From: Myxococcus eversor
GTDB lineage: Bacteria > Myxococcota > Myxococcia > Myxococcales > Myxococcaceae
DNA length: 64,000 nt
Direction of reading: 5' to 3'
NCBI RefSeq assembly: GCF_010894455.1
Contig: NZ_JAAIXY010000024.1
Coordinates: forward strand, 1 to 64,000
The notes beneath the pieces are model-generated. The model was not told the DNA's origin. It worked only from the letters and a program-made list of their open reading frames with translations, and searched no databases. The position numbers were made by a program, and so were the translations under genes. Shown here piece after piece: positions 18,676 through 54,896 of the stretch. Within the stretch, counting starts at the first letter, position 1, and every line of letters begins with the position of its first letter.

Positions 18676-19314
18676 TTGCCCCGGAAGCCGTCCACGCCCG
18701 CGCCAAGACTTGTCGCCGTGGCACGAAAGCCCCCCAGCACCCAGCCTGACGCCCCGGAGCCGGATGACGGCACGGGCGATGCCTCGCGCGAGCTGACGCC
18801 CAAGCAGCGCGCCTTCGTCCGGGAGTACCTGAAGGACTCCTGCGCGGCTCAGGCCGCCATTCGCGCCGGCTACTCCGCGAAGACGGCGGACTCGGCGGGC
18901 TCGCGGTTGTTGAGGAATGTCAAGGTTCAGGCTGCGCTGGAGGAGATGGAGGCGGCGCTCGCCGAGGCGGTGGGGGACGAAGTCACCGTCGAGGTGGCGG
19001 AGGTCATCCGCGAGCTGCGGTACCTGGCCTTCTCCGACATCGGCCAGGGCGTCGGCGAGCTGGGCGGGGTGCGCAACCTGAAGGACATGCCCGAGGGCTT
19101 CCGCCGGGCGATCTCCAGCATCGAGGTGGAGGAGCTGTTCGAAGGGAAGGGCGAGGAGCGGGAGCAGGTCGGCATCGTCACGAAGGTGAAGCTCTGGCCG
19201 AAGGACAAGGCGCTGGAGCTGCTCGGCAGGTTCCTGAAGATGTTCACCGACAAGGTGGACCTCGAAGCCACTCTCAAGAAGAGCCACGAGGACGCGCTGG
19301 GAGAGCTGGAGTGA
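18676..19314 (+). CDS. Terminase small subunit
   Basis: 212 residues if started at TTG 18676, immediately after the sigma-like gene; GTG 18718 is the alternative start. The core LTPKQRAFVREYLKDSCAAQAAIRAGYSAKTADSAGSRLLRNVKVQAALEE is the DNA-binding HTH of the Terminase_2 family. It binds the packaging site and recruits TerL, whose gene overlaps its end by 4 bp. Confidence 0.88.
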   Translation: MPRKPSTPAPRLVAVARKPPSTQPDAPEPDDGTGDASRELTPKQRAFVREYLKDSCAAQAAIRAGYSAKTADSAGSRLLRNVKVQAALEEMEAALAEAVGDEVTVEVAEVIRELRYLAFSDIGQGVGELGGVRNLKDMPEGFRRAISSIEVEELFEGKGEEREQVGIVTKVKLWPKDKALELLGRFLKMFTDKVDLEATLKKSHEDALGELE

Positions 19315-20897
19315 GCGTGGCGCGCCAGGCCCGGCGGAGCCCGTCCGTCCGGACGCAGGTGGCCCGGGGGCGGGAGCCTCGCATCCTCCGGAAGCGGCTC
19401 GGGCGGCAGCGGCCCGAGAAGAAGGCCCTGCTGTCGCCGCGCGAAAAGGCCATTCGCCAGCGGTTGAAGGACGACTTCCCACACTACTCGTCGCGGTGCC
19501 TCTTCATCCGGACGAAGAAGGGGGGCGTCGAGCCCTTCGTCCTCAACGCGGCCCAGACGTACCTGCACAAGCGCCTGGCGGAGCAGCTCCGGGTGACGGG
19601 ACGGGTGCGTGCCCTCATCGTGAAGGGGCGCCAGCAGGGCTGCACCACCTACGTGCAGGGGCGTTTCTTCCAGGCCCTGTCTCACCGCGAGGGCGTCCGG
19701 GCCTACATCCTCACGCACGAGGACGCGGCCACCAACAACGTCTTCGAGATGACGAAGCGGTACTACGAGAACTGCCCCGCTCTCGTCAGGCCCAGCAAGG
19801 GCGCCGCGAACGCGAAGGAGCTCGTCTTCGACAAGCTCTCGTCCGGGTACAAGGTGGGCACCGCGGGCAGCAAGGGGACGGGGCGCTCCTCCACGGTGCA
19901 GTACTTCCACGGCAGCGAGGTGGCGTACTGGCCCAACGCCGACACCCACGTGGCCGGTGTCCTCCAGGCGGTGCCAGACGAGGACGGGACCGAAGTCATC
20001 CTCGAGTCCACCAGCAACGGGCCCGAGGGACTCTTCTACGACCTGTGCATGGCGGCGCAGCGGGGGGAGGGCGACTACCAGCTCATCTTCATCCCCTGGT
20101 TTTGGAGCTCCGAGTACCGGAAGAAGGTGCCGGCGGGCCTCGCCCTCACCTCGGAGGAGGAGCGCTACAAGGAGGCGCACGGCCTCGATGACGGGCAGAT
20201 GGCCTGGCGCCGGGCCAAGGTGGTGGAGCTGGGCGGCGTGCACCACTTCCGGCGCGAGTACCCGGCGACGGTGGAGGAGGCCTTCAAGGCCGCTGCGGTG
20301 GGCGCGCTGTGGACGCAGGAGCTTCTGGACCTGCACCGCGTGGCGGAGCGCCCCAGGGATGCCGAGGGCAAGCCGCTGCCGATGGTGCGCGTGGCCGTGG
20401 CGGTGGACCCTGCCGGCGGCGATGGGCCGGACAACGACGAGGTGGGCATTGTCTGCGCGGGCGTCGCCTCCAACGGGCACGCCTACGTGTGGCGGGACGA
20501 CTCGGCGAAGTACACGGCGGAGGGCTGGGCCTCCAAGGCCCTGGCCGTCTACGAGAAGGAGATGGCCGACGTCCTCGTGGGCGAGAAGAACTACGGCGGC
20601 GACATGGTGGAGACCACCATCCGCAGCAAGGCCCGTGAGTCGCGCAAGCACGTCAACGTGAAGGTGGTGACGGCCTCGCGTGGCAAGGCGAAGCGCGCGG
20701 CCCCCGTGGCGGCCCTCTACGAGCGTGGCCTCGTGCACCACGTGGGCCGCCTCATTGCCCTGGAAGACGAGCAGACGACGTGGGTGCCGGGCGAGACGAA
20801 GTGGAGCCCCAACCGCATGGACGCCGCAGTGTGGGCACTGACGGAGCTGATGCTGGGCAAGGGCGCCGACACCTTCAAGGTGGGGAGCTACCGGTGA
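19311..20897 (+). CDS. Terminase large subunit
   Basis: 528 residues from GTG 19311. The ATPase half has a Walker-A-like KGRQQGCTTYVQGR (about 104), the adenine-side YILTHEDAATNNVFEM segment and a Walker-B/coupling region around EVILESTSNG. The nuclease half starts at VAVDPAGGDGPDNDEVGIV (about 364) with RNase H-like acidic residues and ends near the PNRMDAAVWALTEL motif typical of TerL. Motor for DNA packaging. Confidence 0.92.
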   Translation: MSVARQARRSPSVRTQVARGREPRILRKRLGRQRPEKKALLSPREKAIRQRLKDDFPHYSSRCLFIRTKKGGVEPFVLNAAQTYLHKRLAEQLRVTGRVRALIVKGRQQGCTTYVQGRFFQALSHREGVRAYILTHEDAATNNVFEMTKRYYENCPALVRPSKGAANAKELVFDKLSSGYKVGTAGSKGTGRSSTVQYFHGSEVAYWPNADTHVAGVLQAVPDEDGTEVILESTSNGPEGLFYDLCMAAQRGEGDYQLIFIPWFWSSEYRKKVPAGLALTSEEERYKEAHGLDDGQMAWRRAKVVELGGVHHFRREYPATVEEAFKAAAVGALWTQELLDLHRVAERPRDAEGKPLPMVRVAVAVDPAGGDGPDNDEVGIVCAGVASNGHAYVWRDDSAKYTAEGWASKALAVYEKEMADVLVGEKNYGGDMVETTIRSKARESRKHVNVKVVTASRGKAKRAAPVAALYERGLVHHVGRLIALEDEQTTWVPGETKWSPNRMDAAVWALTELMLGKGADTFKVGSYR

Positions 20898-21397
20898 GCG
20901 TCGCGTGCGCCACCGCGCCGGCACCGGGTGCCGTCCTGTACGTGTCCGGCCCGTACCGCGTCTGGGTGCGGCGCACCGTGCTGGCGAAGGCCCAGCGCCT
21001 GGCCCGCGTGCGTGCCCCGCTGGAGACGGGCGGGCTGCTGCTGGGGCAGGTGGTGGACGGCGAGGCCCACGTGCTGGCGCTGACGGGCCCGGGGCGGCGC
21101 GCGCGTCGCAGCCGCCTGGGCTACGAGTCGGACGGGGCGCGGGACACCCGGCTGGTGGCGCGCGTCTACCCGCAGCTGCACTACCTGGGCGACTGGCACA
21201 CCCACCCGGGCGGCCCCGCGGTGCTGTCCGCGACGGACGTGGCCTCCATTCGGGGGGCGCTGTCGCCCTCCCGGCCCGAGGTGCTGCACCTGCTGCTGGC
21301 GGGCCCGGCCGACATGGGTGACGCCGTGGCCTCTCTCTTCACCCTGGTGTGCGGCGAGTCCGCCGCCCGCCGCATGACGCCCGAGGTGGCAGCGTGA
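20894..21397 (+). CDS. JAMM/MPN metallo-isopeptidase-like protein
   Basis: 167 residues from GTG 20894. Complete JAMM zinc site: Glu in LETGGLLLGQ, then HTH-PGG and the downstream Ser/Asp of VLSATD, giving E...H-x-H-(x)n-S-x2-D. This is the fold of Rpn11-type deubiquitinases and prokaryotic JAB peptidases. It lies between terminase and a proteasome-like gene, overlapping both by 4 bp, so the three are co-translated. A second JAB domain is fused in the tail protein at 53095. Possible roles: processing of head proteins, or protein-tag removal linked to its neighbour. Confidence 0.8.
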   Translation: MSVACATAPAPGAVLYVSGPYRVWVRRTVLAKAQRLARVRAPLETGGLLLGQVVDGEAHVLALTGPGRRARRSRLGYESDGARDTRLVARVYPQLHYLGDWHTHPGGPAVLSATDVASIRGALSPSRPEVLHLLLAGPADMGDAVASLFTLVCGESAARRMTPEVAA

Positions 21398-21930
21398 CGT
21401 GCATAGCTGGAGTGGTGGCGAAGGGCCGTGTGTACCTGGGAGGGGATAGCGCGGGCGTCGGTGGGTACGAGCTCACCGTCCGCTCGGACGTGAAGGTGTT
21501 CTCCAACGGCCCCTTCCTCATTGGCTTCACCTCGTCCTACCGCATGGGGCAGTTGCTCCAGCATGCCTTCAGCCCGCCACCGCCGCCGAGGAAGCCCGGG
21601 GCGCTGGGCCGGTACATGGTGGTGGACTTCGTCGACGCCGTGCGCGCGGCGCTGAAGGACAAGGGCTGGGCGACGAAGCAGAGCGAGCAGGAGCTGGGAG
21701 GCACCTTCCTCGTCGGCGTGGCGGGACACCTCTTCCGCCTCGAGGCCGACTACCAGGTGGGCGAGGCCCGAGACGGCTTCGACGCCGTGGGGTGTGGCAG
21801 CGAGGCCGCGCGTGGGGCGCTCTTCGCGTCCTGGCACCTCAAGCCCGAGTCCCGAGTGCGCATGGCGTTGCGTGCCGCGGAGCGCCTCAGCGCGGGCGTG
21901 CGCGGCCCCTTCCGGGTGGTGTCGGGGTGA
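21394..21930 (+). CDS. Proteasome/HslV-like Ntn hydrolase
   Basis: 178 residues from GTG 21394. After removal of fMet the mature N-terminus is Thr1-Cys-Ile-Ala-Gly. Counting from Thr1, Asp17 (GGDSAG) and Lys33 (SDVKVF) fall exactly at the catalytic positions of proteasome beta subunits and HslV, followed by an IGFTSSYRMGQLL strand/helix equivalent. Length fits HslV (about 175). No dedicated ATPase partner lies nearby in the head module. No classical prohead protease is visible in the window, so this is a candidate for that role. Confidence 0.75.
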   Translation: MTCIAGVVAKGRVYLGGDSAGVGGYELTVRSDVKVFSNGPFLIGFTSSYRMGQLLQHAFSPPPPPRKPGALGRYMVVDFVDAVRAALKDKGWATKQSEQELGGTFLVGVAGHLFRLEADYQVGEARDGFDAVGCGSEAARGALFASWHLKPESRVRMALRAAERLSAGVRGPFRVVSG

Positions 21931-22163
21931 GCTGCCGCGCACCCACGCCGCCGGTGGCCGGACGCCGCCGTGCCGCCTCCACCTGGCGCCTGCGCGGGCG
22001 CGGGCTGCCCCGTGCCGCCCGGCGCGACTCCACCGTGCTGGTGCTGCGCTTCTTCGCCTACCTCGAACACCGGACGTCCACGCGCTTGTCCCGGCTGTCC
22101 CTCCGGGCATGGCAGTACGTCCACCTCCGCCGCCCCGGCCATGCAGAGAGGGCCCGCCCATGA
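21927..22163 (+). CDS. Small basic protein
   Basis: 78 residues from GTG 21927, overlapping both neighbours by 4 bp. Arg-rich (RRRAASTWRLRGRGLPRAARRDS) with an aromatic helix (LVLRFFAYLEHR). No family recognised. Evidence is the coupling and lack of an alternative frame here. Confidence 0.45.
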   Translation: MSCRAPTPPVAGRRRAASTWRLRGRGLPRAARRDSTVLVLRFFAYLEHRTSTRLSRLSLRAWQYVHLRRPGHAERARP

Positions 22164-23716
22164 CGTCCGACGTGAGCAACAAGAGCAGCGCCTACAAGGC
22201 GATGGAGCCGCACTGGGCCATGGTGAAGGCCCTCCAGGGTGGCACGGAGGCCATGCGCGCCGCTGCGACGACGTACCTGCCTCGGCACGCGCGAGAGTCC
22301 GACGAGGCCTACAGCGAGCGCCTCCAGCGCAGCTTCCTCTTCAACTACTTCGAGACGTCCCTCTCCACGCTGGCGGAGATGCCCTTCACCAAGCCGGTGG
22401 TGCTGGCGGACTCCGCGCCCGAGGAGCTGCACAACCTCGTGGGCGACGTCGACAGGCAGGGCAACGACTTGACGTCCTGGGCCCGCAACGTCTTCACGGA
22501 CGGGCTGGCCAACGGGCTGACGCACATCCTCGTCGACTTCCCCAAGGTGGACAGGGCCCGGGTGCAGACACGGGCGGATGAGGTGGAGGCGGACGTCCGC
22601 CCCTACTTCGTCCACGTGCCTGCCGACTCGCTCCTGGCTGCCTACGCCACCGTGGAGGGCGGCGCCCAGGTGCTGACGCACATTCGCTTCCGCGAGACGG
22701 TGACGCGGGCGTCCGGCTTCGAGGAGGTGGCCGTGGAGCGCGTCCGTGTCCTCGAGCGGAAGGCCTGGGCGGTGTACGAAAAGGACGGGAACGGCGCCTG
22801 GGCGCAGGTAGACAGCGGGGAGAACACGCTGGGCTTCATCTCTCTCGTCACCTGGTACGCGGGCAAGCCGAAGGGCTTCATGCTCATCCGCCCGCCGTTG
22901 CTGTCCCTGGCGGAGAAGAACCTGGAGCACTGGCAGTCCGCCAGTGACCAGCGAAACATCCTCACGGTGGCGCGGTTCCCCATCTTGGCGGCCTCGGGCG
23001 TGACGGAGGCGTCGCCGCGGGAAGAGCGCACCAGCACGGAAGGGATGAGCGCCGAGGATGTGGAGTTCCTCGGGCGTCCCGGTGCGCGGGCGGGAATCAC
23101 CATCGGCCCCCACTCGCTGCTCACCACCACCAACCCCCAGGGGAAGTTCTACTACGTCGAGCACACCGGGGCGGCCATCGACGCCGGTGCGAAGGACCTG
23201 GAGCGCCTGGAGGACCAGATGGCGGCGCTCAGCATCGAACTGGTCGTCCGGAGGAAGGGCAACACCACGGCGACGGAGAAGGACATCAACACCGGGCAGA
23301 GCTACTCGAAGCTCCAGTCCATGGCCCGCCGCTTCGGAGATGCGCTTGCGCTGGCCTTCCACTTCGCGGCCCGGTGGGTGTCCCTGGAAGTGCCGGACGA
23401 CCAGCTGAAGGTGTCCGTCCACACGGACTTCGGCGTGGAGGAGGGCGACTCGCAGGGGCTGGAGGTACTCCTCAAGACGCGCCAGGCGCGGGACCTCTCC
23501 CGCCCGGCCTACCTGAAGGAACTCAAGCGGCGGGGCACTCTCTCCGCGGACTTCGACGTGGCGGTGAACCAGGAGGAACTGGATGCGGAGGGGCCTGCGT
23601 TGGGCACGCTTCGCTCCGAGCCGAAGGACAAGCCCCAGCTTCCCGGCCAGACGGTGCCCCCGCAGCCGCCCGCCGCTGGTGGCGGTCCCCCTGTCGCTGC
23701 TGGAGGTGCAGCGTGA
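22160..23716 (+). CDS. Phage portal protein (DUF4055-like)
   Basis: 518 residues from ATG 22160. Layout fits DUF4055 portal-like proteins: YLPRHARESDEAYSERLQRSFLFNYFETSLSTLAEMPF near the N-terminus, IPLVTWY-like FISLVTWYAGKP, NLEHWQSASDQRNIL in the middle, and DIEEQMAALS-like LERLEDQMAALSIELV before a Thr-rich loop. The C-terminus is Pro/Gly-rich. It forms the dodecameric DNA entry ring; position after TerL agrees. Confidence 0.85.
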   Translation: MTSDVSNKSSAYKAMEPHWAMVKALQGGTEAMRAAATTYLPRHARESDEAYSERLQRSFLFNYFETSLSTLAEMPFTKPVVLADSAPEELHNLVGDVDRQGNDLTSWARNVFTDGLANGLTHILVDFPKVDRARVQTRADEVEADVRPYFVHVPADSLLAAYATVEGGAQVLTHIRFRETVTRASGFEEVAVERVRVLERKAWAVYEKDGNGAWAQVDSGENTLGFISLVTWYAGKPKGFMLIRPPLLSLAEKNLEHWQSASDQRNILTVARFPILAASGVTEASPREERTSTEGMSAEDVEFLGRPGARAGITIGPHSLLTTTNPQGKFYYVEHTGAAIDAGAKDLERLEDQMAALSIELVVRRKGNTTATEKDINTGQSYSKLQSMARRFGDALALAFHFAARWVSLEVPDDQLKVSVHTDFGVEEGDSQGLEVLLKTRQARDLSRPAYLKELKRRGTLSADFDVAVNQEELDAEGPALGTLRSEPKDKPQLPGQTVPPQPPAAGGGPPVAAGGAA

Positions 23717-24009: not shown

Positions 24010-24719
24010 AGCGGCTCCGTGTCATGGGGGCCGAGCTGGCGTTGAAGGTGGCGTCCGTGCTCGCCGACGTGGAGGGGGCGTCGGCAGCCCGGTGCGAGTG
24101 CGGGGAGTGGCTCAGGGAGGCCTGCGCCACCTGCACTCGGTGCGGAGCCTCGCCACCTCGATGGGAGGACGCCGGGGTGAGGGCGCGCCGCTGGCCTCGC
24201 TGCTCCTGCTGCTCGGAGCCGATGGACGCCAGCCGCCTCACGGCCTGCGTCCATTGTGCGGCCGCGCTTGAGCAGCGCGCGGTGCGGGAGGCGTTGGCGC
24301 GCCTGGTTGGTGCGCACGGTGAGGCGCCCGAAACGACAGGGGACCCGGGCGGAAACTCCTCGGAACCCGGGCAGTCGGTGCGCACCGCTGAACAGCCCGC
24401 CGCCGAACTGGACCTGGAAGAGCTCGAGCGCGTGGCCCGCGCGGCCGCACGGCACGACGACGGCTGGACTCTGGAGACCGCGGAGACGTCGCCCCACCTG
24501 GCCGAGGATCCGGCATCCTCCGTCCACCTGCCGCTCGACGTGAGGTGGACGGCCACCATCGTCACCCGAGCACCATGGAGCGTCCTGCTGGAGGTGGTGG
24601 GCAACGTCACCGCCGTGCCGGACCGGGCGCGCCACATCCTCGCCTTCCAGCCCCGCGTGGCCCTGGCCCTGCTCGCCGAGATGCGCCGCCTGCGTGAGGG
24701 GAGGGGTGGCGGGTGCTGA
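24006..24719 (+). CDS. Zinc-motif protein with Ead-like C-terminus
   Basis: 237 residues from GTG 24006. Two CxxC-type clusters: CECGEWLREACATCTRCGAS and RCSCCSEPMDASRLTACVHCAA (about 30-90) suggest a double zinc ribbon. The C-terminus (about 195-237, VVGNVTAVPDRARHILAFQPRVALALLAEMRRLRE) resembles Ead/Ea22 proteins. An early-type gene embedded in the head module. Confidence 0.5.
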   Translation: MKRLRVMGAELALKVASVLADVEGASAARCECGEWLREACATCTRCGASPPRWEDAGVRARRWPRCSCCSEPMDASRLTACVHCAAALEQRAVREALARLVGAHGEAPETTGDPGGNSSEPGQSVRTAEQPAAELDLEELERVARAAARHDDGWTLETAETSPHLAEDPASSVHLPLDVRWTATIVTRAPWSVLLEVVGNVTAVPDRARHILAFQPRVALALLAEMRRLREGRGGGC

Positions 24720-25549
24720 CGTCGTGCGTGCAGCGGTGGAGCGGGCGGCGGGCCAGCTACCGGCCTGCCGGCGAGCCGATCCGCGCCAGCGACTACGAGG
24801 TGGCACCCCTGGCGCGCGACACCGAGGCGCGGGCCTTCGTCGAGGAGCATCACTACAGCGGCTCCTACCCGGCTGCCCGGTGGCGCTTCGGACTCCATCG
24901 CCGGGGTCAGCTCGTGGGCGTCGCGGTGTTCTCCCAGCCCGTCAACGACAAGTCCCTGGCCGTCTTCCCTGGTGGGGCGGCCTCCGCGGTGGAGCTCGGG
25001 CGCTTCGTGCTGCTGGACGACGTGCCCGCCAACGGGGAGACGTGGTTCCTCGCGCGGGCCTTCGAGGTGCTGGCGCGCGACGGGGTGGTGGGCGTCCAGT
25101 CGTTCGCGGACCCGGAGCCGCGCACCACCGCGAGCGGCGAGGTGGTGTTCCCCGGGCACGTGGGCACCATCTACCAAGCGCACAACGCGGTGTACCGGGG
25201 ACGGGCGACGCCGCGTACGCTACACCTGCTGCCCGACGGGACGGTGTTCAGCGCCCGCGCGGCGCAGAAGGTGAGGGCGCGGGAGCAGGGCTGGCGGTAC
25301 GCCGTGGCGCAGCTGGTGGAGTCCGGCGCCCAGCAGCCCGCGCCCGGCGAGGACCTGCGCGGGTGGCTCCGGGAGTGGCTGCCCCGGGTGACGCGCCGAC
25401 AGCGCCACCGGGGCAATCACCGCTACCTGTGGGGGCTGCGTCCAGCAGTCCGCCGGCACCTGCCACCGTCGCTGCCGTACCCGAAGTGGGAAGTGCGGTT
25501 GGTGTCGGAACGAGCTGCGCTGAGCGGCCGCAGCCCGGGAAACGTGTGA
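24713..25549 (+). CDS. Mom-like DNA-modification protein
   Basis: 278 residues from GTG 24713. The core matches the Mu Mom-like GNAT-fold family: EEHHYSGSYPAARWRFGLH, GVAVFSQPVN, ELGRFVLLDDVPANGETWFLARAFEVLARDG, SFADPEPRT and HVGTIYQAHNAVYRGR. Mom converts adenine to a methylcarbamoyl derivative that blocks many restriction enzymes. The C-terminal 100 residues are basic and extra. Its place inside the head operon implies late expression, when genomes for packaging would be marked. Confidence 0.75.
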   Translation: MLTSCVQRWSGRRASYRPAGEPIRASDYEVAPLARDTEARAFVEEHHYSGSYPAARWRFGLHRRGQLVGVAVFSQPVNDKSLAVFPGGAASAVELGRFVLLDDVPANGETWFLARAFEVLARDGVVGVQSFADPEPRTTASGEVVFPGHVGTIYQAHNAVYRGRATPRTLHLLPDGTVFSARAAQKVRAREQGWRYAVAQLVESGAQQPAPGEDLRGWLREWLPRVTRRQRHRGNHRYLWGLRPAVRRHLPPSLPYPKWEVRLVSERAALSGRSPGNV

Positions 25550-27197: not shown

Positions 27198-28411
27198 GCA
27201 CCGGCCCGACGATGAACGAGGAGCTGCTGGAGCGCTCCATCGCCCACGGGGTGCAGGTTGAGCGCTACAAGGCGGGCCTCGTTCGGCGCGTGGTGGAGGT
27301 GCTCAACGAATCCGAGGAGGACCTGGAAGCCGAGCTGACGAAGCGCCTGTCCCGCATCGAGGCGGCGGGCGGGTACGACGCCGGGCCCCAGGTGACGAAG
27401 CGCCTGGAGGAGATGCTGGCCCGGGTGGGCGGCGTGCGCGCCGAGGCGTACGGCACGGCGATGGGGCTCATGACGGAGGAGCTGGGCGCCTTCGCGCTGC
27501 ACGAAGCCAGGTGGCAGGCGGCGGTGCTGCAGGAGACGCTCATCGTCGAGCTGTCCGTGGCCACGCCCTCCGCGGAGGTGCTGCGCGCGGCCGCCTTCTC
27601 TCGGCCCTTCGAGGGGCACGTGCTGAAGGACTGGGCGGACTCGCTCGCCCCCGCCGACGTGGACAGGCTGGGGCGCGTAGTGCGCCAGGGCGTGGTGGAG
27701 GGCAAGACGACGCAGCAGATGGTGCGCGAAGTCATGGGCACCCGCGCGGAGGGCTACTCCAACGGGATTCTGGAGACGAGCCGGCGCAACGCGGAGTCGG
27801 TGATTCGCACCGCCACCAGCCACGTCGCCACCCAGGCCCGGGAGGAGGTGTTCAAGGCGAACGCGGACATCGTCCAGTCCGTCCGCATGGTGGCCACCCT
27901 CGATGGCCGCACCACGCTGGGGTGCATGGCGCTGGACGGGAAGGTGTTCCCCGTGCGCGACGGACGCCGTCCTCCCTTCCACCGAGGCTGTCGCACAACC
28001 ACGTCGCCCGTCATTGACGGCGTGAAAATGGTGGGAGACCGGCCCTCTGTCACGGACACACGCACAAGGCGTCAGCGGGACATCGACTTCCGCGCCGAGG
28101 CCAAGGCCAAGGCGGGCGAGGCGCGCTGGACGGCCATGTCCGAGAAGGAGCGCGCGGCCGCCATCTCCCGTCAGCGCCAGAAGTGGACGCGGGAGAACGT
28201 CGGCCAGGTGCCGAAGGGCCTGTCCTACGAGGAGTGGCTCCGGAAGCAGCCCACGCCATTCCAGGACGAGGTGCTCGGGCCCACGCGCGCCCGGTTGTGG
28301 CGCGACGGCCGCTTGCCGTTGGGGCGCTTCACCGACGCCAGCGGGAAGACGCTGACGCTGGAGCAACTGCACGCGGCGGAGGCCGCGTCTTTCAAGCGGG
28401 CGAAGTTGTAA
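27194..28411 (+). CDS. Phage head morphogenesis protein (MuF-like)
   Basis: 405 residues from GTG 27194. A helical N-terminal two-thirds leads to the MuF signature: ATLDGRTTLGCMALDGKVFPV followed by PPFHRGCRTTTSPV (about residues 233-270), the conserved D-x-R-T...C...G...P-x-H-x-x-C-R block. In Mu and SPP1, homologues are minor head proteins carried in or on the procapsid. A basic C-terminal extension follows. Confidence 0.85.
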   Translation: MSTGPTMNEELLERSIAHGVQVERYKAGLVRRVVEVLNESEEDLEAELTKRLSRIEAAGGYDAGPQVTKRLEEMLARVGGVRAEAYGTAMGLMTEELGAFALHEARWQAAVLQETLIVELSVATPSAEVLRAAAFSRPFEGHVLKDWADSLAPADVDRLGRVVRQGVVEGKTTQQMVREVMGTRAEGYSNGILETSRRNAESVIRTATSHVATQAREEVFKANADIVQSVRMVATLDGRTTLGCMALDGKVFPVRDGRRPPFHRGCRTTTSPVIDGVKMVGDRPSVTDTRTRRQRDIDFRAEAKAKAGEARWTAMSEKERAAAISRQRQKWTRENVGQVPKGLSYEEWLRKQPTPFQDEVLGPTRARLWRDGRLPLGRFTDASGKTLTLEQLHAAEAASFKRAKL

Positions 28412-28446: not shown

Positions 28447-29202
28447 ATGCCGTTCGAGTGGCAGCCGGAGCTGGAGAAGCTGGATGAGGTGCCCGAGACG
28501 TACCGCGGGTTGTACGCGAAGAAGGACGGCGCGGAGGGCGAGGCCCCGAAGTTCACCCTCGACGCCGACCTGGCGAAGCGGATGGACACCTCCGCCCTCG
28601 CCAACACACTGAAGAAGGAGCGCGACATCGGCAAGGAGCTGAAGAGCCAGCTCGCCGGATTCACGAAGCTGGGGAAGGCGCCAGAGGAAGTCGAGAGACT
28701 GGTGGCCGACTTGCGCGCGGAGCTGGCCGAGGCGCGGAAGGGGAAGGAGGGCGCGGACGCGTGGGACAAGCAGCGCGCCACGCTGGAGGCGAACCACACC
28801 AAGACCCTGGGCGAGAAGGATGCCGAGGTGAAGCGGCTGACGTCCGTCATCCACAAGCGCATCGCCGAGTCCGCTGTCCGAGACGCGCTCGTGAAAAATG
28901 AAGGGGCTGTCGATCTTCTCTTACCAATCGTCGCGCCCAACGTGACTTTGGTGGAGGAAGACGGTGATTTTTTGGTCCGGATTACTGACGAGAAGGGCAA
29001 CCCTCGCGACAGCAAGTCGGGCAGCCCCATGACGGTCGAAGAGTACGTCCTGGAGCTCAAGAAGGATCCGCGCTTCGCTCGTGCCTTCAAGGGCACGGGT
29101 TCCTCGGGCGGTGGGACGCCCCCGGGGGCGAACTCGGGAGGGATTCCCGGGAGTACGAAGATGACCCCGCTGGATCGCATCTCCAAGGGGTTGAAGAAGT
29201 AG
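28447..29202 (+). CDS. Scaffolding protein
   Basis: 251 residues; ATG 28447 after GAGAGGA. A long charged helical centre (LKSQLAGFTKLG, VERLVADLRAELAEARKGKEG, about 55-145) and a Gly/Ser-rich C-terminus with a basic end (DRISKGLKK) fit phage capsid scaffolds. Its position immediately before the major capsid gene agrees. Confidence 0.75.
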   Translation: MPFEWQPELEKLDEVPETYRGLYAKKDGAEGEAPKFTLDADLAKRMDTSALANTLKKERDIGKELKSQLAGFTKLGKAPEEVERLVADLRAELAEARKGKEGADAWDKQRATLEANHTKTLGEKDAEVKRLTSVIHKRIAESAVRDALVKNEGAVDLLLPIVAPNVTLVEEDGDFLVRITDEKGNPRDSKSGSPMTVEEYVLELKKDPRFARAFKGTGSSGGGTPPGANSGGIPGSTKMTPLDRISKGLKK

Positions 29203-29370: not shown

Positions 29371-30291
29371 ATGCCTTCAATCACCCTTGTCGAAGCCGCC
29401 AAGCTCAGCCAGGACGACCTGGTCGGTGGAATCATCGACAACATCGTCACCGTCGACGCCTTCTACCAGCGCCTCCGCTGGGAGTCCGTGGAAGGGCCGG
29501 CCATCGTCTACAACCGCGAGTCCTCGCTGGGCGACGTGCAGATGCTGGGCGTCGGCGGCACCATCACCGCCAAGTCGCCCACCACCTTCGTCCAGGTGAC
29601 GAGCGCCCTGAAGCGCATTATCGGCGACGCCGAGGTGGACAACTTCATCGAGGCGACGCACTCGGACACCACCGACCAGAAGGCGCTCCAGGTGGCCGGG
29701 AAGGCCAAGGCGGTGGGCCGCAAGTACGCCAACCTGCTCGTCAACGGCACCGGTGCCAATGACGAGTTCGAGGGCCTGCTGGGGCTGGTGAGCGCGGGCC
29801 AGACGCTGGTGGCCGGGCCGAACGGCGCCGTCCTCTCGTTCGACTTGCTGGACCAGCTCCGGCAGAAGGTCACCGCGAAGGACGGGAAGCTCGACTTCTA
29901 CATGATGTCGGGCCGCACCATTCGCTCCTTCAAGAAGCTGCTGCGTGCGCAGGGCGGTGCCGGCATCATCGAGACGGTGGAGCTGGCGGACGGCGTGGAG
30001 GAGGTCCTCGTGTACGAGGGCGTCCCCATCTTCAGGAACGACTGGATTCCCACCAACCAGACGCAGGGCACCAGCACCACCTGCACCTCCATCATCGCCG
30101 GGTGCCTGGACGACGGCACCCGCAAGGTGGGCATCGCTGGCCTGCACGCGAAGAAGCAGATGGGCATCCACGTCGCTGACATCGGCGAGGCGGAGCTGAA
30201 GGACGAGTCCATCACCCGCGTGAAGTTCTACTGCGGCCTGGCCGTGTTCAGCGACCTGGGGCTGGCGGTGCTCCAGGGCGTGACGGACTGA
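29371..30291 (+). CDS. Major capsid protein
   Basis: 306 residues; ATG 29371 preceded by GAGGAGG. An N-terminal helical arm is followed by beta-rich HK97-type sequence: IVYNRESSLGDVQMLGVGG, KAVGRKYANLLVNGTG, DFYMMSGRTIRSFKKLL, YEGVPIFRNDWIPTNQT, and a terminal VKFYCGLAVFSDLGLAVLQGV. Strong start signal, position after scaffold and a long 168-bp leader all fit the most expressed structural gene. Confidence 0.85.
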   Translation: MPSITLVEAAKLSQDDLVGGIIDNIVTVDAFYQRLRWESVEGPAIVYNRESSLGDVQMLGVGGTITAKSPTTFVQVTSALKRIIGDAEVDNFIEATHSDTTDQKALQVAGKAKAVGRKYANLLVNGTGANDEFEGLLGLVSAGQTLVAGPNGAVLSFDLLDQLRQKVTAKDGKLDFYMMSGRTIRSFKKLLRAQGGAGIIETVELADGVEEVLVYEGVPIFRNDWIPTNQTQGTSTTCTSIIAGCLDDGTRKVGIAGLHAKKQMGIHVADIGEAELKDESITRVKFYCGLAVFSDLGLAVLQGVTD

Positions 30292-49321: not shown

Positions 49322-51697
49322 CTATGCGCTTGTTATGATACGAACAGGCAGGTGGGTCGCAATTGGGGATAGAATCCGGAACTGCTGTCGGACTAGGTCG
49401 TAAAGTGGAACGTTCGCGTCCGCGCGTATGGTTGCCACCATGGTCATATTTAGGGGAGGTACTTTCCTGGTGAGTCCTCCGTCGTCACGGCTTGTATGTA
49501 TGAGGTCTAGCCGCGGCAGGTAGAGGTCAGAGGCGCTGAAGCGAACGCGACCCCGGAGGATTGTTTCCCATTTGCCTGCTGCTCGGCGGGAGCTCTCATG
49601 GCCAGATTTCAGCCGATTTGAATGGGCTTTCGGAGCGTAGCTGATTGTCCATCCATCGAGGACTAGTTGTTCGGTGTCGATCTTGTCGAGCCTCACGTCC
49701 ATGGATTCGTCTTTTCGTGTTGCAGAGCGAATCAGGTCGTGAGGTCGAAAGATTTCTTCGATACTGCTCAGTGTGTAGTCCGTCGCATCCGACGGGTCGA
49801 TTTTGGATGTGAATGCTATCGTCCAATCGATTTCGATGGTTGTGAACTCGTCAATGCCGGTGCGTGGTACGGGCAGCCGCATTGCAACGACTTCGTCCCG
49901 TGCGAGCGTGTCTTGGTAGATGACGCTCACCTCATGTGGTGCGCATGCGAAGATTTCGTTGTATGAGCTAGGTATGCGGCCGAAGCCTAGTTCGATGGAA
50001 TTGTGCCCGCGCTGTGCGCGCTCGGAAAAGTGGGCACTGAAGGAACGAATGGCTGAAGGGGTTGTTCGTTTCTTCCCTAGAATTGTGCCAAGTTGAACCG
50101 CTCCGCGCATCGCTAGTGGCGACGCAAGGCTTGTCCCTGCGGATTCGACGTAGCGGCCGCGCTGATCAAGTCCACCAAAAGGCAGTTCGTCACATCCGCC
50201 AAAGGCAACGCAAATAGGTTGAACACGCTGGCCAGCACGCCCTGGACCAATGGCGCTGTAGCTGGCTCGAACGGCTTTTTTGCCTGCGTGCGTGCTTGTC
50301 GCACCAATGGCCAGTCCGTTTACCATGTCGCCAGGGACTTGGACTCTATTGAAGCCGAGCTTGCCGTCTTCGTTGCCATTGTTTCCCGCAGCAAGGAAAA
50401 ACGTAACGCCCAATTCTTCGGCTAGAGTGTCGAGCTGCGAAGTCCAGTAATGAGGGTCGCCGTCGTCAACAACTTCATCGGGACCGAGACTTAGGTTTAC
50501 AAACTTGTATTTGCGCTCGCGGACTGTGTTCTTGATGGAGTCGAGGCATTGATACAGGCCGTGGTCGAATTTGGTCGACGGGGCAAGGGGAAGGACGCGA
50601 AAATGATCAACATAGGCTACAGGCGTTTGGAGGACTGTGTCGGTAGGCGCAATGTGGCCAAAGAGGAAAGCACTTGTTACCATCGAGCCATGTCTCATAT
50701 CCTCACTTGTCGGAGCGGCCGTAGTTAGGTCTTCGGCCGTCACGAATGGTTGGAGGTAAGGACTCAGCTGATTAATGCCTCCGTCGAAGATCGCCACTCG
50801 CTCATTTGTAAGAGGCCGTGCATCTGCGGCTGGAGGAGTTGGTCTCTTAGAGGAGCTTGCAGTTCGTCGGAACGTCGGCCGATACGGTCGAATCGACGGC
50901 ATCGGTCGAATGGCTCGCACGAGGTTGAATCGCGCGGCCTCATGTATTGCTTCCGCGTGAAGTGCGATGGGGACAAATATGACGCCGCCTAGTTCTCTAC
51001 GGAATTCGATGTCAACATCTCCATCGAGGTCCCGTATGTGCTTGACCCAGCGTAGGAATGCCTCTGGTTCCAGGTCTGACCGCTCATTCTTGTTGCGCCC
51101 GATCGGATTGAGGACGGTCTCCCACGTGATGACTTCGCCATCTCCAAGAGCCACCTTAGGGGCTTTGACGATGTCGTCTGGAGTGGCCAAGCGGATTTCC
51201 GAGAGTTCGCGTAGCTTGCTCCATTCGGGGTCCTTCTCTCCAACGGGCCTGCGCATTGCTGCGTTCGCGAAGCTGAGGACGTGAGCGGGGTCGCCTGCAA
51301 TTAGGATTGTCTTGGTTGGAGCGTCGTCTTTTTGTTTCTTCTTTGTTTTGAGGACGCCCGTTGCTTGGCGAGTTCCGACCGGATAGAGGCTATGTGCCTC
51401 AAGCAATGCAGTTGGAAAATATGAGGGCGCCAAGTAGTTTGGAAGCAGGGTTGCTTCGAAGACAATATGGCGCGCTCTTAATGCTTGTGGCATTTTCGTT
51501 ACTGCTTTTGCTAGTGACCCTGCCTGTGGTGCCAGCAGTGCATGAGCTTCGGCTAAAGTGTGTGGATGGAACTTGGGGCGACCGCCCTGCGCGATCGTGA
51601 CAACCTCCCTTAGATGTTCCCCTCCACCCAATAGTGGGCGCCGAACTTCTGGGCCGCCGCGACCACCACTTCCCTTTCCATCATTGCTTTTTTCCAT
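49322..51697 (-). CDS. Subtilisin-like serine protease (S8)
   Basis: 791 residues, low GC. Residues about 1-280 form an N-terminal region without recognised domains. The S8 catalytic domain follows: Asp in VAIFDGGINQL, His in MRHGSMVTSAFLFGH, oxyanion Asn in FFLAAGNNGNEDGK, Ser in SAGTSLASPLAMRG; the triad is intact. No signal peptide, so it acts in the cytoplasm. It overlaps the AAA+ gene by 17 bp. AAA/S8 pairs are annotated as anti-phage (IteA/IteS names, from memory), and this pair fits that pattern. Confidence 0.85.
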   Translation of the reverse strand: MEKSNDGKGSGGRGGPEVRRPLLGGGEHLREVVTIAQGGRPKFHPHTLAEAHALLAPQAGSLAKAVTKMPQALRARHIVFEATLLPNYLAPSYFPTALLEAHSLYPVGTRQATGVLKTKKKQKDDAPTKTILIAGDPAHVLSFANAAMRRPVGEKDPEWSKLRELSEIRLATPDDIVKAPKVALGDGEVITWETVLNPIGRNKNERSDLEPEAFLRWVKHIRDLDGDVDIEFRRELGGVIFVPIALHAEAIHEAARFNLVRAIRPMPSIRPYRPTFRRTASSSKRPTPPAADARPLTNERVAIFDGGINQLSPYLQPFVTAEDLTTAAPTSEDMRHGSMVTSAFLFGHIAPTDTVLQTPVAYVDHFRVLPLAPSTKFDHGLYQCLDSIKNTVRERKYKFVNLSLGPDEVVDDGDPHYWTSQLDTLAEELGVTFFLAAGNNGNEDGKLGFNRVQVPGDMVNGLAIGATSTHAGKKAVRASYSAIGPGRAGQRVQPICVAFGGCDELPFGGLDQRGRYVESAGTSLASPLAMRGAVQLGTILGKKRTTPSAIRSFSAHFSERAQRGHNSIELGFGRIPSSYNEIFACAPHEVSVIYQDTLARDEVVAMRLPVPRTGIDEFTTIEIDWTIAFTSKIDPSDATDYTLSSIEEIFRPHDLIRSATRKDESMDVRLDKIDTEQLVLDGWTISYAPKAHSNRLKSGHESSRRAAGKWETILRGRVRFSASDLYLPRLDLIHTSRDDGGLTRKVPPLNMTMVATIRADANVPLYDLVRQQFRILSPIATHLPVRIITSA

Positions 51698-52886
51698 TCG
51701 ACTGTGCCCCCGCTTTTCTCTTTGGCCTGAGGTCTTGCCCGCTGGTTGAGTTGGTGGTTGCCCAGTGCCGTATGTATTTTCCTACAGTGACGTGGGATAC
51801 GTCTAGATGCTGCGCGATCTCGCGCTGCGTCATGCCGAGCATGGCGTTGGCCAAGCCAGCATAGGAAATGCGTTGTGCCTCCGACCCGCGCTTCAAATAG
51901 TTCAGCGCGCGTGCTGTGAGAATCGGTGTCAGGTGTGGGTCATTTCCGACTACGAAATCTCGAATGGCTTCAGAGGTTAGTCTTCCTATGTCGGAGCCTG
52001 ACATTCCGGTGGTCGCAATTGCAAGTGTGGTGACGTCTCCGTCAGCTAGCGACTGGTTGTGAGTTGCTAGCGTCCGTATGAGAATTGCGTGGCGAAGAGC
52101 GAGGTCTGGGAGGGGCAAGCTGAGAGTCCGTTCGAAACGTCGCCACACTGCTCGGTCGAGAAGTTCAGGATGGTTTGTCGCGGCAACGAGTAGCCCCGTT
52201 GGAGGCCACCGGTCGATTTCCTGCAGCAGGACGTTGACGATCCTCTTTAGCTCGCCAACATCGCTGTCATCGTCTCGGCGCTTGGCGAGGGCGTCGAACT
52301 CGTCGAGAAAGAGGACTGACCTGTTTCGCTGGCCGAAGTTCAGGGCTTGCCGCAAGTTCTGCCCAGTTTTCCCTAACAGGGAAGAGACTAGGGCCGCCAA
52401 GTCTACGGTGAAAAGTGGCCATCCGATCTGGGCAGCAAGGTATCTCGCCGTCATCGTCTTTCCGACCCCGGGGGCGCCCGTGAGTAGAAGTGTTCGAGTT
52501 GGCTCTAGCCCGGCGGCTTGGAGGACTTGTGGGCGCTTTCTCTCGGCTACCACCTGCTGGACCACTCGCTCGACGTCGTTCGGAAGGAACGGTGACGGAG
52601 CCTCATCTGCTTCGTCGACATGGACTAGGGGGAAGAAGGAGGAGTCATCGACGGGGGGCGATTCCCGACTGATGTGATGTGTGCGGCCATCATTTGAGCG
52701 TCGAAGACTCCTGGACGGCTCCGACTCGCTCAGCAGAGGGACTAGAAGTTCACGGAGCCTGACCTCATCTGGGGACTGTTTGTCGGAAGCCTTGGTGAGC
52801 CGGGAGGCGAGGCGGCGGATGGATGCTTGGTCGCCTAGGAGTCCGAGCCGAACGAGGTCGGCGATCATCTGAATGAAGTCCGTCAT
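51681..52886 (-). CDS. AAA+ ATPase with C-terminal HTH
   Basis: 401 residues; ATG 52886 with AAGGG before it, preferred to a TTG at 52943. Walker A GAPGVGKTMTARY, Walker B SVLFLDEFDAL, sensor/arginine-finger segment AATNHPELLDRAVWRRFE. The C-terminal tail has a helix-turn-helix (TQREIAQHLDVSHVTVGKYIRHW), unusual for this ATPase class; with the repeats over its promoter this suggests autoregulation. Probably unfolds or gates substrates for the subtilisin encoded next. Confidence 0.85.
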   Translation of the reverse strand: MTDFIQMIADLVRLGLLGDQASIRRLASRLTKASDKQSPDEVRLRELLVPLLSESEPSRSLRRSNDGRTHHISRESPPVDDSSFFPLVHVDEADEAPSPFLPNDVERVVQQVVAERKRPQVLQAAGLEPTRTLLLTGAPGVGKTMTARYLAAQIGWPLFTVDLAALVSSLLGKTGQNLRQALNFGQRNRSVLFLDEFDALAKRRDDDSDVGELKRIVNVLLQEIDRWPPTGLLVAATNHPELLDRAVWRRFERTLSLPLPDLALRHAILIRTLATHNQSLADGDVTTLAIATTGMSGSDIGRLTSEAIRDFVVGNDPHLTPILTARALNYLKRGSEAQRISYAGLANAMLGMTQREIAQHLDVSHVTVGKYIRHWATTNSTSGQDLRPKRKAGAQSNGKKQ

Positions 52887-52980
52887 TGGTAACCCTTGGT
52901 AAGTCCTATTACCAATGTTCACATCGTGAGCATGAAGACGCAATGACGGCGGTGGTAACCGTCGGTCTTCCTACTTACCA
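52885..52980. promoter_or_regulatory. TGGTAA/TTACCA operator array
   Basis: Five copies of the hexamer TGGTAA or its complement occur in 94 bp at 52887, 52897, 52909, 52953 and 52975. ATTGGTAA (52885-52892) and TTACCAAT (52909-52916) form an exact 8-bp inverted repeat at the AAA+ start codon. A likely binding site for the ATPase's own HTH or another repressor. Confidence 0.55.
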
Positions 52981-53094: not shown

Positions 53095-53826
53095 ATGTCC
53101 CCCGTAGTCACGCCCGAGTTCTCCTCGGCCGCTGTCGCCTCCGCTGTTGCGCATGCCCGCGCGGATTTTCCTCGCGAGTCCTGCGGGTTGGTGGTGCGCG
53201 TCGCGGGAGAGCTGGTCTATCGGCCCTGCCGGAACCTCGCTGCGGGCCAAGCCCACTTCCACCTTGCGCCAGAGGACTTCGCGAGCGCCGAATCAGCAGG
53301 CGAGGTGGTGGCGGTGGTGCACTCCCACCCTAACGCCTCCCCGGAGCCGAGCGAGGCGGACCGCGTGATGTGCGAGCGCTGGGGCCTACCCTGGCTCATC
53401 ATCAACGTGCCGGTGGGGCACTGGCAGGTGCTGTACCCCTCGGGCTACCGCGCGCCGTTGCTGGGCCGGGAGTTCTCCCACGGCGTCCTGGACTGCTTCT
53501 CCCTCATCCGCGACTACTACCGCGAGACGCTGGGCCTGGAGCTGCCCGACTTTGAGCGCCCCGACGACTGGTGGGCTAAGGGCGGGAACCTCTACCTGGA
53601 GGGCTACGAGAAGGCGGGCTTCGTCGACGTGACGGGCTCGCCGCTGCGCGAGCACGACGTCCTCCTCATGCAGCTCCGGGCGAAGGTGCCCAACCACGCG
53701 GGCGTCTACTTGGGCGCGGACGTCGTCCTCCACCACCTCCAGGCTTCGCTCTCCAAGAGGGAGACGTACAGCGGCTTCTGGGCACGGGTGACTCGGAAGG
53801 TTGTGCGGCATCGCACCCTATGCTGA
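53095..53826 (+). CDS. Tail assembly protein K-like (JAB + NlpC/P60)
   Basis: 243 residues. N-terminal JAB/MPN domain (ESCGLVVR, then VAVVHSHPNASPEPSEADR, a complete JAMM motif) and C-terminal NlpC/P60 domain with catalytic Cys in GVLDCFSLIRDYYRETLG and His in PNHAGVYLG. This is the architecture of lambda gpK, a tail-tip assembly/cell-wall protein. It overlaps gene I by 7 bp. Confidence 0.9.
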   Translation: MSPVVTPEFSSAAVASAVAHARADFPRESCGLVVRVAGELVYRPCRNLAAGQAHFHLAPEDFASAESAGEVVAVVHSHPNASPEPSEADRVMCERWGLPWLIINVPVGHWQVLYPSGYRAPLLGREFSHGVLDCFSLIRDYYRETLGLELPDFERPDDWWAKGGNLYLEGYEKAGFVDVTGSPLREHDVLLMQLRAKVPNHAGVYLGADVVLHHLQASLSKRETYSGFWARVTRKVVRHRTLC

Positions 53827-54896
53827 CGACGGTGGTGCTCGGCGGGCCCCTGGGAGCTCGCTTCGGGCGGGAGTGGAAGCTGGAGCTGGGAGTGCCCTCG
53901 CCCGCGGAGGCGGTGCGGGCCCTCTGCGCGGTGTGCGCGGGCTTCAGCCGCTACCTCGCGGAGAACAGCGCGCCCGGCTACCACGTCCTCGTCGGCGAGC
54001 GCGATGTCGGCGCCAAGGAGCTGGGCGTCGTCACGGGCGAGAAGCGCATCACCATTCTCCCGGCCCTGGCGGGCGCGAAGCAGGCGGGTGTCCTCCAGGT
54101 GGTGCTGGGCGCGGTGCTCATCGCCGGCGGCGCGGTTCTCTCCGTCTACGACTACGGCGCGGTGGGCGGACAGCTCATCGCCCTGGGCAGCAGCCTCGTG
54201 GTGGGCGGCGCCGCGCAGCTCCTCTTCAAGCCGCCCTCGGCCACGGGCCCGCTGGAGAAGCCCGACACCCAGCCCAACTACGTCTTCAACGGGCCGGTGA
54301 ACACGCTGGCCCAGGGCCACCCGGTGGCCCTCTGCTACGGCGAAATGGTGGTGGGGAGTTGCGTGGTGTCCGCTGGCATCTCCACCGAGTGGAGCGCGGG
54401 CGGCGGCTTCGGCGGCTCCGGGAGTGGCCAGCACGGCCCGGGTGGGCAGGGGCCCGTGGGCGGAGGGTGCCCGGCGCCGTGGGTGCCCATTCTCCTCTCG
54501 GACGGCCGCGAGGTGCACGCGGGTGACGTGCGCGTGGGCGCGTGGGTGCGCACCCAGGACGAGGTGACGCTGGAGTGGGGCGACTACCCCGTCTCCCACG
54601 TCTCCACCCTGGAGGCGGAGTGCTGGCGCCTGGTGCTGGAGGACGGCCGGGAGCTGGTGGGCACCTACAACCACCGGGTGCGCACGGAGGCCGACTGGGT
54701 GGAGCTGCGCCACCTGGACGCGGGCATGCGCCTCGTCGGCGAGCGACCCGGCGTGGTGGCCCGCGCGGAGGCGGCCGGGCGCGGCCCCGTGGTGCGCATC
54801 ACCGTGGCGGGCGCGCACACGTACCAGACGGTGGGCTTCCTCTCGCACAACACCAAGAACGAGGACCCGGAGCGGCCCCATGACGAAGCACCTTGA
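53820..54896 (+). CDS. Tail assembly protein I-like with C-terminal Hint domain
   Basis: 358 residues. Residues 1-185 are lambda gpI-like: VVLGGPLGARFGREWKLELGVPSPAEAVRALCA, a hydrophobic helix pair near 88-135, and GPVNTLAQGHPVALCYGEMVVGSCVVSAGI. After a Gly-rich linker (193-216) a Hint domain begins at Cys217 (CPAPWVPILLSDG), has the TYNH block and ends SHN344-Thr345, leaving only 14 residues. At 128 residues it is a mini-intein without homing endonuclease. With Cys1, HN and Thr+1 it could splice or cleave. Confidence 0.85.
   Translation: MLTTVVLGGPLGARFGREWKLELGVPSPAEAVRALCAVCAGFSRYLAENSAPGYHVLVGERDVGAKELGVVTGEKRITILPALAGAKQAGVLQVVLGAVLIAGGAVLSVYDYGAVGGQLIALGSSLVVGGAAQLLFKPPSATGPLEKPDTQPNYVFNGPVNTLAQGHPVALCYGEMVVGSCVVSAGISTEWSAGGGFGGSGSGQHGPGGQGPVGGGCPAPWVPILLSDGREVHAGDVRVGAWVRTQDEVTLEWGDYPVSHVSTLEAECWRLVLEDGRELVGTYNHRVRTEADWVELRHLDAGMRLVGERPGVVARAEAAGRGPVVRITVAGAHTYQTVGFLSHNTKNEDPERPHDEAP

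Follow-up and report, generated by a model that had tools for sequence, protein, structure and literature searches.

A putative Cap3-like JAB isopeptidase and an HslV-like hydrolase as accessory genes between terminase and portal in a myxobacterial prophage

The stretch of DNA considered here (the window) comprises 64,000 nucleotides from Myxococcus eversor, positions 1 to 64,000 of the forward strand of contig NZ_JAAIXY010000024.1 (contig C41 in our dataset), in a genome of 11.4 Mb. It carries an epsilon15-like myxobacterial prophage, and our subject is two adjacent genes between the terminase and portal genes of its head module, one encoding a JAB/JAMM domain protein (hereafter JAB) and the other an N-terminal nucleophile hydrolase (hereafter Ntn). 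Both genes are also found on a 92.8 kb IMG/VR viral contig with 99-100% identity, and the closest named entries of the genome collection come from a Myxococcaceae metagenome-assembled genome and, somewhat more distantly, from Corallococcus.

All genes of the head module are encoded on the plus strand. The terminase small subunit (TerS, Terminase_2; 18676..19314; PF03592, E 1.3e-33; phrog_51, 9.3e-37) and the terminase large subunit (TerL; 19311..20897; PF17289, 1.5e-10; phrog_979, 1.2e-21) are followed by the JAB gene (20894..21397), which encodes a predicted accessory Cap3-type JAB/JAMM isopeptidase (PF14464, 5.8e-12; PADLOC JAB models, 5e-18), and by the Ntn gene (21394..21930), which encodes a predicted accessory HslV/BPH-like Ntn hydrolase of the phage AAH or 'peptidase HslV' kind. 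Next come a small basic open reading frame (ORF) of 78 codons (21927..22163), which occurs in some relatives only, and the portal gene (DUF4055/phrog_145; 22160..23716; phrog_145, 3.2e-123; PF13264, 6.2e-36). The small ORF is 53-93% identical in the other prophages that have it and 100% identical in the near-identical contig, and the remaining prophages gave no match. Further downstream are genes for a MuF-like head morphogenesis protein (27221..28411, start approximate; phrog_241, 2.8e-126), whose MuF part also matches phrog_595 ('head maturation protease', 7.5e-16), a head scaffolding protein (28447..29202; phrog_206, 2.5e-34) and a major capsid protein of the epsilon15 gp7 type (29371..30291; NF045672, 8.7e-36, above cut-off). 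Capsid residues 5-303 align to positions 1-308 of the 309 in the NF045672 model, so the capsid protein carries no extra N-terminal domain.

The genes from TerL to portal are stacked with minimal overlaps. The GTG start of JAB at 20894 overlaps the TerL stop at 20897, and the GTG start of Ntn at 21394 overlaps the JAB stop at 21397, in both cases within a 4-base GTGA; the Ntn stop at 21930 overlaps the start of the small ORF in a further GTGA, and the small ORF overlaps the portal start at 22160 in an ATGA. The overlapping starts and stops indicate that JAB and Ntn are co-translated with the head genes. The initial annotation, made from the sequence alone, had placed both genes correctly and had described 4-bp coupling to TerL and to the portal operon; the former is as described, and the latter runs via the intervening 78-codon ORF.

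The JAB protein matches the Prok-JAB family PF14464 with 45.9 bits (cut-off 25), and its HxHx7SxxD motif (HTHPGGPAVLSATD) and upstream glutamate do not vary across 19 aligned sequences, that of the window among them. Its structure was predicted with a pLDDT (predicted local distance difference test) of 90, and the closest match in the PDB is 9ild_A, a Cap3 bound to its CD-NTase (cGAS/DncV-like nucleotidyltransferase), with a Foldseek E-value of 3.7e-11 and, by structural alignment, a Z-score of 19.8 and a root-mean-square deviation (rmsd) of 2.3 over 145 aligned residues. The closest sequence models are those of the VC0181/6A-MBL/Cap3 group in NCBIfam and PADLOC, all below their cut-offs. From sequence and model together, we infer that JAB acts on its own as a Cap3-like isopeptidase.

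The Ntn protein matches phrog_1040 ('peptidase HslV family') with an E-value of 6.3e-20, and a search of Pfam and NCBIfam gave no match up to E 1, hence no HslV family model. Its predicted structure (pLDDT 95, from a run using 71 rows picked from the Ntn loci described below plus further homologues) has four main helices. The closest folds in the PDB are the BPH structures 5ovs_J and 5ovt_A (Z 21.8; rmsd 2.2 and 2.1 over 169 and 167 aligned residues, respectively), and HslV comes next with Z up to 19.9. A sequence search of the PDB found no proteasome relative, and the fold search alone recovered them.

Ntn homologues were collected from 160 loci, made up of the top 80 of 350 viral and the top 80 of 184 genomic ones. 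We aligned 159 of these; one row (L057), ended by a contig edge, was dropped. Thr1, Asp17 and Lys33 occur in all 159 aligned homologues, although Thr1 does so partly by construction, as rows were required to have threonine as the second codon; this does not apply to Asp17 and Lys33. Four rows, all from Rhizobium, stop after 38 codons. At the position that we take to be the oxyanion-hole glycine, set by eye against an HslV sequence, the homologues have serine (93/159) or threonine (53/159). Catalysis by Ntn is therefore likely but unproven. The initial annotation had noted a complete JAMM motif in the first gene and the three catalytic residues of the second at proteasome-like spacing. Both observations hold, the former through the PF14464 match, the invariant motif and the confident fold, the latter through conservation in all aligned homologues, and structure prediction recovered the JAMM and Ntn folds with confidence.

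In order to place the two genes among related phages, we compared the TerL-portal junction across the window's prophage group, which consists of 12 IMG/VR JAB loci (L190-L201) out of 20 JAB loci. JAB lies upstream of portal in 12/12 loci of the group, either directly or with Ntn and/or the small ORF between them. This is also the case in L194, L200, L201 and L227, even though the window's TerL has no match there at 1e-5; L227 has a diverged TerL that belongs to the same PHROG. Ntn is present in seven of the 12 and missing in L194, L196, L199, L200 and L201. The junction holds JAB alone in L196 and L199, JAB and the small ORF in L194, L200 and L201, JAB and Ntn in L195, L197, L198 and L114, and all three in L190-L193. 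An empty junction was found in the prophage L279 (genome G022), where the stop codon of TerL and the start codon of portal overlap and no gene lies between them. The TerS, TerL, portal, MuF, scaffold and capsid proteins of L279 each align as one uninterrupted match (identity to the window 72% for TerL, 60% for portal, 66% for MuF and 81% for capsid), and genome G022 as a whole gave no match to Ntn and none to the Cap3 family. The occurrence of empty, single and double junctions among relatives indicates that both genes are accessory to the head module. JAB and Ntn are thus best read, from these sequence comparisons, as accessory late genes stacked in the TerL-portal junction.

The two genes also differ in their recombination (mosaic) histories: in one relative Ntn is 99% and JAB 89% identical to the window, and in another JAB is 93% and Ntn 66% identical. 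The ratio of nonsynonymous to synonymous substitution rates (dN/dS) is 0.43-0.76 for JAB (8 comparisons) and 0.20-0.42 for Ntn (6 comparisons), values that are blurred by overlapping frames and recombination; they point to purifying selection on both genes, weaker on JAB.

Ntn homologues mostly occur without a neighboring JAB. A motif scan found a JAMM protein in the flanks of 9/160 Ntn loci, all from the window's group (two rows, L037 and L113, seem to represent a single contig), and none in the other 151, although such a scan could miss a divergent JAB and 10/80 viral loci are shorter than 9 kb. Motif matches in L081, L101, L137 and L144 were judged from the peptides to be chance, and a stricter motif kept the same nine loci. 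According to profile searches, a TerL or portal of the tested families flanks 53/80 viral Ntn loci and a phrog_80 head-maturation protease relative is present in 34/80, 31 of which also have TerL or portal. The TerL/portal counts are minimum values, and the set includes a few near-duplicate loci; the profile recount is used in place of a BLAST-cluster count that gave 42/80 for TerL/portal and 24 for the protease. In ten viral loci Ntn starts within 30 bases of the TerL stop, and in two annotated large phages it is encoded among hypothetical and DNA-metabolism genes. These distributions suggest that Ntn is a mobile gene with a frequent place in the terminase region; it is not by default a head protease. 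The case is an argument against interpreting the HslV-like genes of phages as head proteases.

Several Ntn homologues were observed in other settings. In Azospirillum (e.g., L156, L160, L177) Ntn occupies a recurrent chromosomal neighborhood without the phage gene clusters that we counted, with the genes judged from sequence, as if these copies had been domesticated. In Streptomyces loci L127 and L135 an AAH-type Ntn is followed by relatives of TerL, portal and head protease, and these Ntn genes look prophage-borne; in contrast, Fuchs et al. 2021 (PMC8665760) saw nothing to suggest that phages transmit AAH in Actinobacteria. A decayed copy in a relative, at G026:C10:149488-149942 (L006, L008) is split across frames and contains an internal stop.

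The unexpected element of the analysis is that putative Cap3-type JABs recur in the head or packaging modules of several unrelated phages. Scans for viral JABs were limited to YLGDWHT or LG[DE]WHTHP-like patterns, so that the 24 contigs recovered are a lower bound: 12 belong to the window's group, seven to other head-module types (L202/L203, L204, L205, L206/L207 and L209; within the two pairs, the neighbors annotated are those of L202 and L207) and five are others. The gene orders are TerL, JAB, small gene, portal (weak match) and head protease in L204; TerL farther upstream and then JAB adjoining a head protease in L205; TerL, head-tail adaptor, small gene and JAB in L207; JAB, TerL and portal in L209; and head-closure protein and JAB in L202. 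MW202482.1, as annotated, has TerL, portal, carboxypeptidase, JAB and MuF. Among the other contigs, JAB occurs with E1 in L255 and with E1/E2 in L262, and a further one is L268; L254 and L267 carry a Cap3-like JAB on contigs with a Zot-like gene, as judged by eye. L208/L026, where E1/E2 and a metallo-beta-lactamase-fold defence-model gene lie beside JAB, was counted as a defence locus. Cap3 is matched at E 9e-27 or better in 5/27 genomes of the host genus, with none of the matches reaching the curated cut-off. Three of these five genomes were checked, and each has a CD-NTase within ~2 kb, with an adjoining E1/E2 gene in one. In the literature that we searched (titles and abstract openings, mostly of open papers) we found no report of Cap3-like JABs in phage head operons or of the JAB and Ntn pair.

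The reading that we favor, tentatively and at slightly under an even chance, is that JAB is a Cap3-like isopeptidase serving counter-defence against ubiquitin-like conjugation, and that JAB and Ntn are separate accessory genes. JAB would cut the C-terminal amide link made by host Cap2-like E1/E2 enzymes, through which a CD-NTase or another ubiquitin-like protein would be joined to host or virion proteins. A Cap3-like enzyme made by the phage would shift the balance towards deconjugation, and this might blunt type II CBASS (cyclic-oligonucleotide-based anti-phage signaling system) or a related conjugation defence in the late phase. Ntn would be a separate threonine protease, of the AAH kind found in phages and probably compartment-forming, with a processing or degrading action of its own on host or phage proteins. 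According to published work, CD-NTase is conjugated to targets by Cap2 and the conjugates are cut by Cap3, which frees cGAS from them, and CBASS is said to respond late (PMC10097602, PMC11153139); T4 fibritin is listed among the cGAS conjugation targets in PMC10449767. The broader proposal, that unrelated phage lineages captured Cap3-type isopeptidases in their head operons as late deconjugases that free cyclase or virion proteins of CD-NTase or ubiquitin-like tags, seems to us possible but rather doubtful.

Several points weigh against the counter-defence reading. Many counter-defence genes are early, whereas the JAB gene is late, and its constant place just upstream of portal in all 12 loci could reflect a structural role. 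The higher dN/dS of JAB may reflect either an arms race or a weak constraint. By Z-score, the closest structure is a tie between Cap3 (19.8) and an archaeal Rpn11 homologue (19.2), although the Foldseek E of the latter is 3.5e-8, and JAB scores 35.0 bits against the 200-bit cut-off of the Cap3 equivalog NF050170, under which the Cap3 candidates of the host genus also fall (best 111 bits). No further Cap3 match occurs in the genome that carries the prophage. Additionally, the effect of Cap3 on CBASS is mixed in the literature, being required or helpful against some phages and antagonistic in another model (PMC10097602, PMC11153139), and a shift towards deconjugation may weaken or, in some systems, strengthen CBASS, both directions being in print.

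The main rival takes the constant position at face value: JAB, and not Ntn, would act in head assembly, by trimming portal, MuF or some other minor head protein or by removing conjugates from it. In its favor, JAB precedes portal even in loci without a match to the window's TerL, and unrelated phages repeatedly have Cap3-type JABs close to TerL, portal or connector genes. However, L279 has the same head genes without JAB in a genome without any Cap3-family match, and two of the unrelated phages, L204 and L205, already own a head-maturation protease, so we consider this explanation unlikely, if worth keeping in view. The empty junction also bears on a role of both genes as a capsid-maturation protease, as the initial annotation had suggested. 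Their place in the head operon and the lack of a stand-alone head protease among the ten scanned proteins of the region, where only the MuF part matches phrog_595, speak for such a role. Nevertheless, both genes are missing from L279, whose head genes are uninterrupted and whose genome has no Ntn match, so a head protease formed by these genes is not present in every phage with this head module. The capsid is of the epsilon15 type, full length to its model and served by a separate scaffold gene, and a canonical head protease relative coexists with Ntn in the 34/80 viral loci. These results contradict the suggestion and leave it hardly any probability; on the strength of the empty-site relative and the co-occurring head proteases we reject a head-maturation pair.

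The second suggestion of the initial annotation was a coupled tag-removal and degradation device comparable to Rpn11 with the proteasome. JAMM and proteasome enzymes act together in eukaryotes, and the two genes are adjacent and translationally coupled. Against this, Ntn is missing from 5/12 JAB loci of the group, the motif scan shows no JAB in 151/160 Ntn loci and the recombination histories differ. A search of contig C41 for E1-type (ThiF) genes, which did not separately cover E2 or ubiquitin-like folds, gave no match, and this disfavors a proteasome-like device with an E1-fed tag. A coupled device is therefore very improbable. The two genes can be called paired only in the window's prophage group, the one in which the scans found them together. 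The idea of tag removal survives for JAB as a Cap3-like isopeptidase, whereas its obligate link to Ntn does not. Alternatively, the two genes could be neutral or host-benefit cargo in a tolerant junction without a role in phage fitness, as their optional presence, their mosaic histories, the broken-frame Ntn in G026 and the four Rhizobium rows ending after 38 codons would allow. The conserved catalytic residues, the apparent purifying selection on both genes and the retention of such JABs in the head modules of unrelated phages make this quite unlikely. If JAB does strip conjugates, as the counter-defence reading holds, phages would be using the off-switch of the very immune system that they face, expressed together with virion proteins that such systems can tag, and this would be a class of anti-CBASS or anti-Bil protein that we did not find in the literature searched. 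The empty, single and double junctions of related prophages are natural controls ready for testing the role of JAB.

The prophage has other genes of interest. A Mom-like DNA modification gene lies between the portal and MuF genes (24713-25549, plus strand; PF25680, 1.8e-25; phrog_1384). An IetAS-like pair (49322-52943, minus strand), comprising an S8 peptidase (IetS, 9.7e-38) and an AAA ATPase (IetA, 3e-84), is likely a prophage-borne defence system. Just after it, in the tail region, is a second JAB gene (53095-53826) with an NlpC/P60-like part, presumably of the lambda gpK type; it reaches only 0.0026 against the PADLOC JAB models, in contrast to the head-operon JAB. In a tail-protein-I-like ORF (53820-54896, plus strand) the C-terminal third resembles a Hint/intein-type domain, as judged by eye and from a PADLOC search only. 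A lambda-type tail JAB as the source of the head JAB is disfavored by the PADLOC contrast and by a poorly supported tree with a very long tail-JAB branch. Recent capture of the Cap3 of the host genus is likewise not supported, with host Cap3s standing apart from phage JABs in the weakly supported tree.

In terms of known systems, the lambda gpK-type tail protein shares the JAB domain with the head-operon JAB and differs in its NlpC/P60-like fusion, its tail location and its weak PADLOC matches. Cap3 of type II CBASS (VC0181 family) is much closer, as it has a single JAB domain of similar size with the ETGG...HTHP...SxxD motif and is also both the nearest solved structure and the source of the nearest NCBIfam and PADLOC models. 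Unlike Cap3, JAB has phage head genes as neighbors instead of a CD-NTase and Cap2 (E1/E2) operon, remains at 35 bits under the 200-bit equivalog cut-off and is placed apart from host Cap3s in that tree. For Ntn, BPH and HslV are the closest solved folds, but at ~20% identity, and BPH is described as inert on standard substrates in PMC5777263. Phage proteasome relatives of its kind are already known in print: Fuchs et al. 2021 (PMC8665760) define the phage-borne proteasome homologues PPH and AAH and record AAH from phages, alpha-proteobacteria and Actinobacteria. PPH lacks H2, whereas Ntn has four main helices, so Ntn is not a PPH. With AAH it shares the Group-I, HslV-like single domain and Thr1, Asp17 and Lys33, and its genomic loci (the best 80 of 184) are largely from Azospirillum, rhizobia and Streptomyces, matching the AAH distribution. 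It is unlike AAH in adjoining a Cap3-like JAB in the window's prophage group and in the serine or threonine at the apparent oxyanion position. Judged by modeled architecture and host range against the published description, Ntn fits the AAH group.

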